This document shows positions 52,972 to 58,800 of a DNA stretch of 64,000 bases, one piece after another. A program made the translations under genes and the position numbers. This stretch comes from Lacticaseibacillus pabuli (lineage in GTDB: Bacteria; Bacillota; Bacilli; Lactobacillales; Lactobacillaceae): contig NZ_CP117884.1 of assembly GCF_028736235.1 (NCBI RefSeq), positions 2,046,001 through 2,110,000 of the forward strand, in the 5' to 3' direction. The notes beneath the pieces were generated by a model. It was not told the origin of the DNA and searched no databases. It worked only from the letters and a program-made list of their open reading frames with translations. The first letter of the stretch is position 1; every line of letters begins with the position of its first letter.

Positions 52972-54624
52972 TTAATTGTTAGCAAGTAACACGACGCCGC
53001 TCTGCGGGCCCAATTCGACCCAATCAGCAAACGACTGACAGGTGCCACTGACGAGTAACTGCTGGTATTCACCGCTTGGAATGGACACACGTTTTGTCTG
53101 CTCGCTCAGATTGGCCAGGACAATCGCAGTCTGGTAGTCATCAGCGCGGGTGTAAACAAACGTGTCATCATCCGTTGGTAACAAGCAGTAGTCACCCTTT
53201 TGGAAAATTGGCAATTTCTTTAGCGCAATGAGTTGCTTGTAGAAGGTCAACATACTTGTCGGCTCCTCATGTTGTGCAGCGACCGTTGCTGTCATCGCCT
53301 CATGCCCATCCAACCAGGGCTGGCCAGTCGTAAAGCCATGATGCGCGGTGTCGTCCCAAATCATTGGGCCGCGCGCTGGCATCTTGTGGTGTTTACTTAT
53401 GGTTGCCAAGGCGGTTGGCTGGTCCATTGTGGTCTGTTTGAGCGCTTCAGTGACTGTCTTATCCTGAAACTGTTCGGGAGTATCAAACTGGAGATTTTCC
53501 ATGCCCAGTTCTTCGCCGTAGTAGATGATAGGAATGCCGCGCTGCAGGTACATCAGCATCGCCAGGCTCTTGGCACCGGTTGGTGTGTGTGCCACCCGCG
53601 TCATCATCCGCGACATGTCGTGGTTCCCCCAGTACAGAACAGGCTGAGAGACGTTGGCTAAGGTTTGTTGCCAGACGACCTGCCCCTTCTTGAACTCGGG
53701 CCAATCCATGTCTTCGGAATGCAAGATGGCGGGCAAGTTTGCCTCATCAGGATGCTGCACGGTCGGGAAATACCGGAACGTAATGACTGAATCCATCATG
53801 CCGGCGTGTTTGCTGGTGTAGTCCACGGCCAAATTGACATTGGCGCTAGCGGCCTCCCCCAGCAAGAAGGTATCAGGATAATCGGCCTTAATCCGTTGAC
53901 TGAACGGCCGGAGCCATTCCTGGACGTTAGGCAGATTAGCATAAAATGGTTCAGCAATCACCGCTTCATCGTCGCCGTGCTCGGAAGGAAAGTTCTGGTG
54001 CAAGTTGGCCTTAGCGATATGGATAAAGGCATCAACGCGCAGTCCATCGATTCCCTTTTCCAACCAGAACTTGGCGATGTCTTCCATGGATAAACGGACT
54101 TCCGGGTTCTCCCAATTCAGGTCCGGCATATGCTTATCGAAGAGGTGAAAGTAGGACTGACCGGTACCAGCAGGATCTGGTGACCAAACGGAGCCGCCAA
54201 AGAAACTGCCCCAGTTGTTGGGCTTTTGCCCATCATGGCCCTCAAAAATGTAGTAATCCCGGTAAATACTGTCGGGGTTGCTGCTGGCATCCTTAAACCA
54301 AGGGTGCTGATCAGATGTGTGGTTCATGACAAAGTCCAAGATGAGGTGGATGCCGGCAGCATGCAATTCGCTGATTAAAGCTTCCATCTCATCCATGGTG
54401 CCAATCTGGTCATCAATGGCGTAGTAATTGGCTACGTCATAGCCGTTGTCAATTTGCGGTGAAACGAACACTGGATTCAACCAGACGGCGTTAATCCCTA
54501 ATTCCTGCAAGTATGGAATCCGTTGCCGAATTCCGTTTAAGTCACCAATGCCATCCCCATTGCTATCCTGGAATGACTTGGGGTAAATCTGATAAATAAT
54601 GGCGTGATCGTACCACGAGCTCAT
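52972..54624 (-). CDS. GH13 alpha-glucosidase, probably alpha-1,4-preferring
   Basis: The 550-residue cytoplasmic enzyme has the catalytic Asp in GLRVDAFIHIAK, Glu in FLLGEAASANVN and Asp in WGNHDMSR. Ala follows the nucleophile (DA), unlike the DV of the second glucosidase in the locus, which suggests preference for alpha-1,4 links such as maltose and short maltodextrins. It is the first gene of the maltodextrin locus and has a promoter with a cre site. Trehalose-6-phosphate hydrolase is an alternative, but no trehalose PTS is nearby. Confidence 0.88.
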   Translation of the reverse strand: MSSWYDHAIIYQIYPKSFQDSNGDGIGDLNGIRQRIPYLQELGINAVWLNPVFVSPQIDNGYDVANYYAIDDQIGTMDEMEALISELHAAGIHLILDFVMNHTSDQHPWFKDASSNPDSIYRDYYIFEGHDGQKPNNWGSFFGGSVWSPDPAGTGQSYFHLFDKHMPDLNWENPEVRLSMEDIAKFWLEKGIDGLRVDAFIHIAKANLHQNFPSEHGDDEAVIAEPFYANLPNVQEWLRPFSQRIKADYPDTFLLGEAASANVNLAVDYTSKHAGMMDSVITFRYFPTVQHPDEANLPAILHSEDMDWPEFKKGQVVWQQTLANVSQPVLYWGNHDMSRMMTRVAHTPTGAKSLAMLMYLQRGIPIIYYGEELGMENLQFDTPEQFQDKTVTEALKQTTMDQPTALATISKHHKMPARGPMIWDDTAHHGFTTGQPWLDGHEAMTATVAAQHEEPTSMLTFYKQLIALKKLPIFQKGDYCLLPTDDDTFVYTRADDYQTAIVLANLSEQTKRVSIPSGEYQQLLVSGTCQSFADWVELGPQSGVVLLANN

Positions 54625-54648
54625 AAACGTCGCCTCCTTACTCTTAAG

Positions 54649-54677
54649 ACTGTATCCGTTTCCACAAGCGGCAACAA
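54649..54677 (-). promoter_or_regulatory. Promoter with overlapping cre site
   Basis: On the minus strand TTGTTG, a 17-nt spacer and TACAGT precede the GH13 gene. TGGAAACGGATACA (54651-54664) matches the cre consensus TGNAANCGNWNNCA fully and overlaps the -10, the usual place for CcpA repression. GTTACCGTTA (54691-54700) just upstream recurs as GTTACCGCTA at 51184-51193 and may be a site for the LacI-type regulator. Confidence 0.75.
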
Positions 54678-54729
54678 CGGATTGGGGTCTGTTACCGTTA
54701 ACATAAAGGATGGCCGGCTGTCATGAGAT

Positions 54730-54768
54730 AAAAAAACGCCGCTCGCGGGAGCTATCCCGTAAGTGGCG
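54730..54768 (-). terminator. Terminator upstream of the maltodextrin promoter
   Basis: CGCCACT/AGCGGCG (one G-U) stacked on CGGGA/TCCCG with loop TAGC is followed by seven T on the minus strand. rpoC already has its own terminator at 55770-55800, so this one suggests a separate minus-strand transcript between them. Confidence 0.8.
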
Positions 54769-54821
54769 AAATGCTTTCTGGTGATAACAGTGTGACGTGT
54801 TGACTGGGTCCGGGCCGGGCT

Positions 54822-55053
54822 GGGGCCGGGACTGGTCGGCATGGGGGCGGCGTGGACGGACGGCTGGAACGCGCTCGGCCGCTTCGGAGCAATTCGAGCA
54901 AAGACCGCTCGTATTGCTCCTCTCGCTAAGAATTAAGCCATTTTATAGAACGAAAATGTCTTAATTCTTGCCGGTATTGATGGCAAGTGCTGCCATCAAT
55001 ACTTCAGCGCTGAGCCTGTCCACGCCGCCCCCACGCCGACCAGTCCCAGCCCC
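54822..55053 (+). repeat. Large palindromic element, copy 1
   Basis: A 232-bp element closed by 36-nt arms (54822-54857 and 55018-55053, 34 of 36 paired) encloses three hairpins: GGAGCAAT...ATTGCTCC, AAGAATTAAG...CTTAATTCTT, and an 11-bp TATTGATGGCA/TGCCATCAATA. The core (GGACGGACGGCTGGAACG, CGGCCGCTTCGGAG, CTCTCGCTAAGAATTAAG) is nearly the same as in copy 2, but the closing stem has different sequence. It encodes no protein. Confidence 0.9.
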
Positions 55054-55520
55054 TCTTTCTACAACTTCAGTTACCAAAATATCGACCTCTTAATCCAGAG
55101 AAACTCGAAACAAATTCATTCCTATTTAGACCATATCCCGCCTATTCAACCTGCATGAAAGCCACGAGTCCATGAAAATTTTCCATGAACCTGCATATCA
55201 ATCTTCGATCAAAAGTATTGAACACTACAAAGAAAGAATCACGCAGTTCCATCGAGTGAACCAAAACATTTGGTCCTCATCACTATTACCTTTTCAGTAT
55301 GTATCAGTAACCTGCAATCAGTGACTACTACTCCAATGGGCTTGGTTAGAATGGTTAATTTTCCGCCAGTTCCAACAACTAGGAAGTGAACTCCGAGTCA
55401 TGCGCGGTGGATCAAATTAATCGTGAACTGGTGAATACATCCAACATAACGAATTCATAAATCGAAACGGAAAACCGGTCACGTGTTGCTCGATTCGGGT
55501 CACACAAAGCATCAATGGCG
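55054..55520. other. AT-richer spacer between the two palindromic elements
   Basis: These 467 bp have no intact gene and lower GC than both flanks. One plus-strand frame (about 55198-55425) reads protein-like (SIKSIEHYKERITQFHRVNQ and, after a stop, WLEWLIFRQFQQLGSELRVM) and could be the remains of a decayed gene, but this is weak. Confidence 0.35.
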
Positions 55521-55749
55521 GACTGGGACTGGCAGGTGCGGGGCTGGGGGTGGACAGGCTCAGTGCTGAAGTATTGATGGCGATTTTTGCCATCAATACC
55601 GGCAAGAATTAAGCCATTTTCGAACTTTAAAATGGCTTAATTCTTAGCGAGAGGAGCATTTTGAGCGGTCTTTGCTCAAAATCTCCGAAGCGGCCGAGCA
55701 CGTTCCAGCCGTCCGTCCACCCCCAGCCCCGCACCTGCCAGACCCAGAC
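55521..55749 (-). repeat. Large palindromic element, copy 2 (inverted relative to copy 1)
   Basis: A 229-bp element with 35-nt arms (55521-55555 and 55715-55749, 33 of 35 paired) and the same three inner hairpins as copy 1, read on the minus strand. Hairpin 1 is changed on both sides (TTTTGAGC/GCTCAAAA), hairpin 2 is a perfect 17-bp stem, and hairpin 3 has 10 bp. Pairing is kept although sequence differs, the sign of selection on structure or of stem-copying replication. Confidence 0.9.
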
Positions 55750-55769
55750 CAATCAGGCCTCCCGCACAC

Positions 55770-55800
55770 AAAAAGGCCCCCACAATGAAGTGGGAGCCTT
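55770..55800 (-). terminator. Terminator of rpoBC
   Basis: AAGGCTCCCAC/GTGGGGGCCTT (one mismatch or wobble) with a 6-nt loop is followed by TTTTTG-like sequence on the minus strand, 25 bp after the rpoC stop. Confidence 0.9.
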
Positions 55801-55824
55801 CTTCAAGCCACGTCCAGCAAAGAA

Positions 55825-58800
55825 CTAATCCTTGCTATCCTTAGCCTTATCATCGTCCTTCGCCATCTGCTGCTCCATGTCGGAGATTGAGTAGACGTTG
55901 TCGGACATTGCACCAACCGTCTTTGGTTCCATGTGACGGTAGGTTGCCATACCAGTACCAGCAGGAATGATCTTCCCGATGATAACATTTTCCTTGAGAC
56001 CGAGCAGTGGGTCGTTCTTGCCGCGGATGGAAGCGTCCGTGAGAACACGGGTGGTTTCCTGGAATGACGCAGCAGAAAGGAAACTGTTGGTTTCAAGAGA
56101 AGCCTTGGTAATCCCGAGGAGGACAGCCCGGCTAGTTGCTGGGGTGCCACCCTTGATCAGGGTTTCGCGGTTTTCGTCGGTGAAGTCACCGATGTCAAGC
56201 AGCGTCCCTGGCAGGATGTCGGTGTCGCCTGGGTCCATGACACGAACCTTACGCAACATCTGACGAACCATAACTTCAATATGCTTATCGCCAATTTCGA
56301 TACCTTGCATACGGTAAACCTTCTGAACTTCGCTCAGCAGGTAGTTTTCCGTATCCATCACGTTCGTTACCTTGATCAGTTCCTTAGGGTCGATAGAACC
56401 ACCGGTCAAGCGTTGGCCACGCTTGATGGTGTCGCCTTCAGCAACTGCCACACTAGATGCGTATGGTACGGAGTATGAACGTTCGTCAGTACCGCCCTTA
56501 ACGGTAATCTCACGGGTGTGTTCTGCGGGGTTCTCATCGATACCGGTGATTTCACCAGCAACTTCAGAGATAACCGCAAGCCCCTTAGGATTACGTGCTT
56601 CAAAGATTTCCTGAACACGAGGAAGACCTTGGGTAATATCTTCACCACCGGCAACACCACCGGTATGGAAGTTACGCATGGTCAGCTGTGTACCAGGTTC
56701 ACCAATTGACTGAGCCGCGATGGTACCAACGGCTTCACCAACTTCAACCTGAAGGCCAGTAGCCAAGTTACGGCCGTAGCACTTCTGGCAGACACCATGC
56801 TTGGTGTTGCAGGTGAAGACGGAACGAATGGTAACACTCTCAACACCGGCGTCGACAATCCGCTGGGACATGTCTTCGTCAAGCAAGGTGTTACGAGGAA
56901 CAATCACTTCGCCAGTCTTAGGGTCACGAACGGACTTCTGGGTGTAACGGCCAAGCAAACGGTCGTACAGAGGCTCGATCATTTCGTTACCTTCGCGAAT
57001 CGCGGAAACAACGAGACCACGTTCGGTACCACAATCTTCTTCACGGACAATGACATCCTGAGCAACATCGACAAGACGACGGGTCAGGTAGCCAGAGTCA
57101 GCGGTCTTCAGCGCGGTATCAGTCATACCCTTACGAGCACCATGAGTACTCATGAACATTTCCAAGACGGACAGGCCTTCACGGAAGTTAGAGATAACTG
57201 GAACTTCCATCATCCCACCGTTAGGCGCAGCCATCAGACCACGCATACCGGCAAGTTGGGTAAAGTTAGAAATGTTACCACGGGCACCGGAATCACTCAT
57301 CATAGAGATAGGGTTCTTCGGGTCAAAGTTGTCGACCAGCTTTTGCTGGATTTCATCCTTGGCCTTGTTCCAGATGCTGATAACACGTTCATGACGTTCG
57401 TCGTCGGTGATAAGACCACGACGGAACTGCTTCGAAACGGTTGCAACCTGCTTGTGGGCATCGTCAACGATTTCTTGCTTTTCAGGAACGTGAGGCACAT
57501 CGGCAACCCCAACGGTGAGGCCGGAGTTAGTGGACTGGGTGTAACCCAGCGTCTTCATGTCATCAAGCAAGTCGGAAGTCCGCTGAACCTTGTAGGTCTT
57601 GAAGACTTCGGCAATGATATCGGACAAGAAGCCCTTCTTGAATGGCTGGATGAATGGGGTGTTTTCGAGGTAACCCTCGATGTCCTCACCCTTGTCCAGG
57701 AAGTACTTGTCAGGCACACCGTTAACGATGTTGTCGACAGTTGGCTCGTTCAGGAATGGCAGACCCTCTGGCATGATTTCGTTAAAGATAACCTTACCAA
57801 CGGAGGTAACCATAATCTTACCGCGCTGAGCTTCGGTAAATGGCTTGTTAGGCATTGAGTCAACAGCCAAACCGATACGGGTGTGCAAGTGCACGTCGCC
57901 GTTCTCATGGGCAAGGATTACTTCGTTGGCGTCCTTGAAGATCATACCTTCGCCGACACGGCCAGCTTCTTCCATCGTCAGGTAGTAGTTACCAAGCACA
58001 ACGTCTTGAGAAGGCGTAACGATTGGCTTCCCATCCTTAGGGGTCAGGATGTGGTGCGCAGCAAGCATGAGCAGACGTGCTTCAGCCTGAGCTTCGTCAG
58101 ACAGTGGCACGTGGACAGCCATTTGGTCACCATCGAAGTCAGCGTTGTAAGCTTCACAAACGATTGGGTGCAGACGGATGGACTTACCATCAACCAGGAC
58201 AGGTTCGAAAGCCTGAATCCCGAGACGGTGCAAGGTAGGTGCACGGTTCAGAAGAACCGGACGCTCCTTGATTACATCTTCAAGAACATCCCAGATGTCG
58301 TCGTCTTGACGATCAATCTTACGACGGGCGTTCTTGATGTTGCTTGCCATATCGCGCTTAACGAGTTCACGCATCACGAATGGCTTGAACAGTTCAAGGG
58401 CCATTTCACGAGGAAGACCACACTGGTAGAACTTCAGTGTAGGGCCAACATCGATAACTGAACGGCCAGAGTAGTCAACACGCTTACCAAGCAAGTTCTG
58501 ACGGAAACGACCTTGCTTACCCTTCAGCATGTGAGACAGACTCTTGAGCGGACGGTTACCAGGGCCGGTAACTGGACGACCACGACGGCCGTTATCGATC
58601 AGCGCATCGACAGCTTCCTGCAGCATGCGCTTTTCGTTCTGAACAATGATGCTTGGTGCGTTCAGGTCAAGCAAACGCTTGAGACGGTTGTTACGGTTGA
58701 TGACACGACGGTACAAATCGTTCAGGTCGGATGTGGCAAAACGGCCACCTTCAAGCTGAACCATTGGCCGCAAGTCGGGTGGAATGACGGGAATGGTATC

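Follow-up and report, generated by a model that had tools for sequence, protein, structure and literature searches.

Why do two neighbouring palindromes share a near-identical core and yet carry closing stems that differ in sequence and still pair? The question was raised by an earlier note on 64,000 nt of the Lacticaseibacillus pabuli genome (the window, by which we mean the whole stretch of DNA that was analysed), which suggested that the two elements could be a structured RNA family, a non-autonomous mobile element with arms copied through a hairpin, or a DNA cruciform or protein-binding structure.

The pair in the window

The two palindromes lie between ORFs of 1219 aa and 550 aa, both on the minus strand in the ORF list, which we take to be rpoC and a glycoside hydrolase gene, respectively. 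An inverted-repeat search of the window recovered both palindromes, each with a closing stem of 36 nt that is 94% complementary, and showed that one copy is the inverse of the other across a 134-nt block (89%) and a 41-nt block (95%), so that position, opposite orientation and near-identical core are as first described (Table 1). The arms were folded on the strand taken as the folded one, which is minus for arm 1, as assigned from the family-wide mismatch asymmetry described below, and plus for arm 2. They gave fold z-scores of -15.0 and -14.3, respectively, and none of 200 dinucleotide shuffles was equally stable in either case.

The closing stems are indeed unlike in sequence yet paired. The change of hairpin 1 on both sides together, and the hairpin 2 loop that reads GAAC in one copy and GTTC in the other, are directly visible in the window sequence. 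Stems that differ between near-identical cores fit a process in which one arm serves as template for its partner, without proving it. Hairpin P4 of arm 1 has a C/U mismatch (G/A on the folded strand) that is present in most family members, as judged by eye from the alignments.

Table 1. Features of the pair, in window positions unless a genome position is given
Feature	Position	Strand or orientation	Basis and remarks
Arm 1 (P1 with hairpins P3, P4 and P5)	54822..55053	folded strand minus, outward leftward	inverted repeats; R1 match; fold z
Arm 1, R1 match	G000:C1:2100856-2101023	+	R1 built on opposite strand
Arm 1, P1 (closing stem) outer arm	54822..54857		inverted repeat
Arm 1, P1 inner arm	55018..55053		inverted repeat
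Arm 1, hairpin P3 (hairpin 1 of the earlier note)	54886..54920		sequence and fold
Arm 1, hairpin P4	54928..54969		direct and inverted repeats; family alignments by eye
Arm 1, hairpin P5	54974..55002		repeat search
AT-rich spacer separating the arms	55054..55519		sequence; consensus promoter scan without sites
Arm 2	55520..55750	folded strand plus, outward rightward	inverted repeats; R1 match; fold z
Arm 2, R1 match	G000:C1:2101550-2101716	-	R1 built on opposite strand
Arm 2, P1 inner arm	55520..55555		inverted repeat
Arm 2, P1 outer arm	55715..55750		inverted repeat
Arm 2, hairpin P3	55653..55686		same sequence as P3 of copy G000:C1:1853039-1853205 (L027 vs L029)
Arm 2, hairpin P4	55604..55645		direct and inverted repeats; fully paired, usual mismatch absent
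Arm 2, hairpin P5	55571..55599		repeat search

A consensus scan found no promoter-like site at 54600-55900 (shuffles gave a mean of 1.2), and a terminator scan of the same interval was empty, so the terminators mentioned here are our own reading of the sequence. Left of arm 1, at 54730-54769, a GC-rich hairpin comes after an A-tract; judged by eye, this is a minus-strand terminator, which the scan did not list. The sole Rfam match of the window at the cut-off was an L13 leader (RF00555; 13129-13185, minus strand, 51.7 bits).

Copies, distribution and arrangement of the family

The pair is not alone in its genome. A blastn search gave 16 matches in the host genome, and R1, a covariance model constructed from eight host copies, identified 27 full-length copies, including the two of the window, and 2 partial ones (32 matches at E up to 0.1, three of them reverse strands of counted copies). 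The search for further copies that had been set as a test was therefore positive. The copies are probably non-coding and intergenic, like the window pair with its place between ORFs, and the layout common to the host subfamilies is a closing stem with hairpins P3, P4 and P5. R1 matched 19 of 30 genomes of the host genus, host included, with 31 and 21 matches in two of the others. A second model, R2, was constructed from 59 sequences of other species (alignment A3), and matched 83 of 301 Lactobacillaceae genomes, in 14 of 40 genera; as at most 11 candidates were scored per genome, R2 copy numbers are lower bounds. In an order-wide sample 3 of 148 genomes matched, all three of them Lactobacillaceae, and a pattern scan of an 84,980-species collection detected at least 120 stretches, the 80 with titles among the matches listed all being from Lactobacillaceae.

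Judged by the plasmid records, the family is rare outside chromosomes: three queries against 72,556 records returned five matching records, two of them weak or partial. The window copy and the L120 unit described below drew no plasmid match. Viral contigs yielded no exact pattern match, and phage records no match for element L060. None of the 4227 models of Rfam 15 matched the window elements or 15 related loci at the gathering score (three weak matches lay below threshold), and the literature searched, from which subscription papers were largely absent, held no description of the family. The family is a large and apparently undescribed one of small mobile repeats in Lactobacillus-type bacteria, in which the elaborate fold is retained through extensive sequence change.

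Some members depart from the common layout. Element L072 (1499-1664) has a second long hairpin inserted within P5, giving 166 nt against about 120, and loci L070, L078 and L083 of genome G017 form a subfamily with cores of about 190-200 nt and 700-900 bp of similar flanks, perhaps larger units.

The convergent arrangement seen in the window is general. Among 150 R2 matches at 80 named loci, 44 of the 46 neighbours less than 800 bp apart were convergent, one was tandem in each direction and none was divergent; neighbours beyond 800 bp showed no such convergent arrangement. Eight of the 158 model matches were excluded from this count as weak or cut by an end, and by position four of these would add convergent neighbours. 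By R1 match positions, all seven close pairs of the host are convergent. The spacer measured about 64-85 bp in 25 of the 46 close neighbours. In 12 of 27 host elements five consecutive T occur no more than 40 nt beyond the outer arm, against 4 of 27 in the mirrored test on the inner side, an excess from which, by our own reading, many host elements seem to sit directly behind gene terminators; target choice and tolerance would both seem able to account for this. A group II intron, suggested by this position, was dropped, as the Rfam scans contained no such match.

Comparison between copies revealed a mosaic pattern. Copy 2 of the window (L027) and L029 have identical P3 hairpins and 98% identity across P4 and P5, with 60% in the outer arms (shuffled arms, 54%), and L033 and L036 are 100% identical in P3 and 52% in the remainder. 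Across the 300 pairs of 25 host elements (two of the 27 had no P3 under the expression used), 14 pairs have P3 hairpins at least 90% identical, with a median arm identity of 0.61 against a background of 0.56. Shared P3 hairpins beside unlike arms indicate that modules have seemingly been exchanged while the stems are copy-specific. The pattern itself is plain, and the process behind the swapping of hairpin modules among copies would probably be gene conversion. The two copies at one orthologous site (L073/L183) show differences, by eye, but none that is two-sided; at a site of less certain orthology (L077/L079) the arms are strongly different and pairing is kept.

Mobility in Lactiplantibacillus

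The case for mobility comes from Lactiplantibacillus songbeiensis and L. dongliensis, where the unit is about 400 bp in length with terminal inverted repeats ACGCTTGGTGCTAGTT. A 396 bp unit of L. songbeiensis (L120, 1177-1572) is matched by a clean empty site in L. dongliensis (L150), and the 9 bp ACTTATTTC is duplicated at its edges. Counts of the inner 13-mer of ACGCTTGGTGCTAGTT in these genomes were 87 and 76, against 0 for the reversed control, and it usually lies 38 nt beyond a core. We found 51 distinct units bounded on either side by ACGCTTGGTGCTAGTT with few mismatches; their lengths are 215-406 bp, in most cases 392-406 bp, and they contain no transposase. Exact target duplications of 7-9 bp flank 16 of the 51 (seven of 7 bp, four of 8 bp and five of 9 bp) and are absent from the other 35, while shuffled partners gave a mean of 0.34 and a maximum of 3 of 51.

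A candidate for the enzyme was found in the sister species L. nangangensis, in which an IS982-family element of 958 bp (L346) has an open frame, a 7 bp duplication and ends that match those of the unit at 16 of 16 positions on both sides. Of eight IS982-type loci in three species, five have no more than two end mismatches per side relative to the unit ends, and a 7 bp duplication was present in two of the five measured. The L. dongliensis loci carry a variant end, with 2 base differences in the closest case, and the one IS982-type locus found in L. songbeiensis is a broken element whose ends have 1 and 4 mismatches. None of the eight contains the fold, so there is no sign that the units arose from IS982 through a simple internal deletion, and the possibility raised beforehand that the arms are ordinary ends of a known IS gained nothing from these eight loci. 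The units lack the transposase and shared internal sequence by which IS982 membership is recognized. In addition, the 30 genomes of the host genus gave no IS982-type match above the cut-off, and three of five stretches between distant end repeats (L264-L266), read for ORFs as possible autonomous copies, contained, on our reading, no transposase.

Inverted ends, target duplications with an empty site, shortness and an IS982-family element with the same ends together make the Lactiplantibacillus unit a MITE-like transposon, as far as genome comparison with one empty site can tell. A second candidate empty site (L096/L119) was rejected as a deletion inside an element. L. songbeiensis and L. dongliensis also carry units at different points of the same stretch between genes (L163 2880-3290 against L114, reverse, 250-670), by their look separate insertions; the region is a possible insertion hot spot.

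The same signature was not found in the host, where none of seven pairs has a duplication or a clear end repeat, the window pair included. Age may have erased ends and duplications, and we therefore file the host subfamily as homologous to a MITE-like family and not as a proven MITE. The suggestion of a mobile element consequently stands for the Lactiplantibacillus family, with its empty site, target duplications and IS982-family ends, and is unproved for the window pair, which shows no duplication.

A strand-specific fold and its possible roles

Covariation, which had also been set as a test, was assessed in alignment A3, derived from 158 pattern hits in fetched loci through 112 clusters and 71 thinned sequences to 59, with 12 divergent or long-insert sequences left out and the pattern matches L186 and L194 judged to be chance. 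It should be noted that, as the sequences were found by pattern, GGCTGGAACGTG and CACTGAGCC are invariant by construction. Both-sided changes occurred in 30 of 41 pairs, and counted by cells (461 altered on both sides) they were far above the one-sided count. The covariation score was 0.481, against 0.133 for shuffles, which ignore relatedness, and at most 0.105 for slid partners, and by this score the refuting outcome of no covariation did not occur.

The strand that folds can be read from isolated mismatches in the closing stem. On the strand carrying GGCTGG, A.C outnumbered G.T by 27 to 9 in the 27 host elements, 23 to 6 in 25 elements from relatives within the genus, 25 to 9 in a further 58 named elements and 80 to 34 in 84 elements of L. 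songbeiensis and L. dongliensis, the last set being dominated by shared ancestry. Pooling the first three gives 75 to 24 (binomial p 2.8e-7, kinship ignored). In the consensus fold of A3, the complement had a G.U/A.C of 91/25 and the GGCTGG strand one of 24/65; the corresponding values for the host copies were 21/3 and 2/8. As a control, Lactobacillaceae RNase P, aligned from 26 of 61 genomes, gave 243/16 sense and 65/76 antisense. The mismatch asymmetry and the consensus folding identify the folded strand as the complement (GGCTCAG ... CGTTCCAGCC), and on these comparisons its direction in each arm is away from the spacer.

Further features recur on this strand. The closing stem frequently contains a symmetric 3x3 loop, TCC/TCC, or GGA/GGA on the folded strand, which is present in 17 of 27 host elements, 13 of 25 from relatives, 24 of the further 58 named elements and none of 84 in L. 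songbeiensis and L. dongliensis. Host closing stems are very long (median 44 bp) and almost without wobble pairs, and single-stranded junction bases are kept across genera in A3, partly fixed by the search pattern. Covariation and one-strand G.U tolerance, by which a structured RNA is recognized, were both found, with a G.U share of 5.4 and 8.3% that is below the 15.2% of RNase P. From this comparative evidence, the fold is a selected, strand-specific feature of the family.

We favour, at a probability of roughly two in three, the reading that the pair in the window is one copy, probably an old one, of a MITE-like, fold-back, non-autonomous element family of the Lactobacillaceae, the following steps being taken jointly. 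The unit would consist of two homologous multi-branched arms, convergent around a usually AT-rich spacer. In L. songbeiensis and L. dongliensis, genome comparison shows a unit of about 400 bp with ACGCTTGGTGCTAGTT ends and 7-9 bp target duplications, for whose movement in trans an IS982-family transposase is the likeliest enzyme, given the identical ends of the intact element in L. nangangensis. Each arm folds as an outward-reading single strand with its 3' end at the unit edge, as the mismatch asymmetry shows, and selection on that strand would keep the helices paired despite sequence change. As copies drift without compensation at one clear orthologous pair, the fold may serve the element's own spread, either as an outward transcript or as an exposed end strand. 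Copies would exchange hairpin modules, probably by gene conversion, with the long closing stem staying copy-specific, and the host subfamily, by homology, would move or have moved likewise.

What the fold does could be read in several ways. The arms could be a structured ncRNA family, in which transcription running from the spacer towards the unit edges yields small RNAs or leaders of use to the host or to the element, with the mobile unit as vehicle. Strong covariation, an excess of G.U over A.C like that of RNase P sense (91 to 25 and 21 to 3) and conserved non-canonical spots such as the GGA/GGA loop in 17 of 27 host elements all agree with this, whereas drift without compensation in the L073/L183 orthologues and the lack of an Rfam family do not. 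As promoter-like sites are absent at 54600-55900, spacers of about 64-85 bp leave scant room for two promoters and the wobble share is low, we keep this reading below certainty, and consider it possible but doubtful. Of the proposed structured RNA, then, the conserved, covarying, strand-specific fold is upheld, and action as RNA is not, the promoter scan of that interval being empty.

The strand that DDE transposases join to the target is the one with its 3' end at the element edge. It is conceivable, though we hold the idea tentatively, that this strand folds as ssDNA in transposition or replication, bound or protected, with no need of RNA. The outward-reading strand is alike at both ends, as a joined strand would be, and the nearly wobble-free closing stems and a wobble share below that of a real RNA, RNase P, are consistent with such a role; against it, same-end IS982-type elements have no fold (0 of 8), and the fold is therefore unneeded for that transposase in general.

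An absence of function appears improbable. Hairpin-templated repair or replication errors could recopy one arm, so that palindromes stay perfect and seemingly covary, which would explain the preponderance of both-sided changes in A3 and the wholesale difference of closing stems between near-identical cores. However, strand-blind repair predicts equal numbers of A.C and G.T, not 75 and 24, and should erase the 3x3 loop that stays unpaired within otherwise perfect host stems; nor does it account for the conserved junction bases. Finally, it is very improbable that the folds represent the termini of an ISLre2-family element (ISLca4) and the window pair its remnants, since the 1.74-kb block (98.7% identity) in which two plasmids carry the fold beside an ISLre2-like transposase is limited to those 2 records, and none of 30 (by R2) or 24 (by R1) loci of ISLre2-like proteins has the fold, which rules this family out as a general partner. 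The block spans L272 2914-4648 and L270 2913-4652, on plasmids NZ_CP033886.1 and NZ_CP151093.1 of L. brevis and L. plantarum, and an IS30-type element seemingly lies at its right edge.

Returning to the MITE-like reading, the family can be compared with known systems. REP/BIME elements are inverted pairs of palindromic units with strand-specific single-strand recognition, a likeness to which we add that the units of our family are many times longer and have end repeats and target duplications. The IS982 family shares with the L. songbeiensis/L. dongliensis unit the exact ends of L346 and a 7 bp duplication, and differs in the 958 bp length of L346, its transposase gene and the lack of a fold match. 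Prokaryotic MITEs, as described in a review (PMC10969869), are likewise short, non-coding, folded, bounded by terminal inverted repeats and moved in trans by IS, and have target duplications of comparable length (7-9 bp in QMITE2); the word Lactobacill- is absent from that review. Set against the MITEs described there, our family has two homologous convergent arms with their own multi-branched folds, compensated changes across genera, strand-specific pairing and a copy-specific closing stem around exchanged hairpin modules. Pneumococcal BOX and RUP (PMC3049150) are also high-copy intergenic repeats with extensive secondary structure, slow insertion and IS-like ends, which resemble those of ISSpn2 and IS630-Spn1, and are set apart by the boxA, boxB array and boxC layout and by another host group. 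Repeated folded intergenic families of Firmicutes were catalogued as stem-loop families (Petrillo type), among which, in the text consulted, the sole Lactobacillus family, Lac-1 of L. johnsonii, sits in coding regions, unlike the intergenic window pair (PMC2267715).

We raise only tentatively the idea of a new kind of mobile element, in which a multi-branched nucleic-acid device, conserved and specific to one strand, would be encoded by the arms across at least 14 genera (as folded transposon-end DNA or a mobile structured RNA), with lineage-varying ends, a core swapped between copies and a closing stem of which every copy renews both sides to match. The family is common in the sampled lactobacilli, and supplies numerous compensated changes, a folded strand that can be measured and, for Lactiplantibacillus, a specific transposase as candidate. 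The general question of why some bacterial miniature transposons keep an elaborate fold that is absent from IS with the same ends thereby becomes testable, and the covariance model of the family is usable for annotating intergenic repeats in food and probiotic bacteria.
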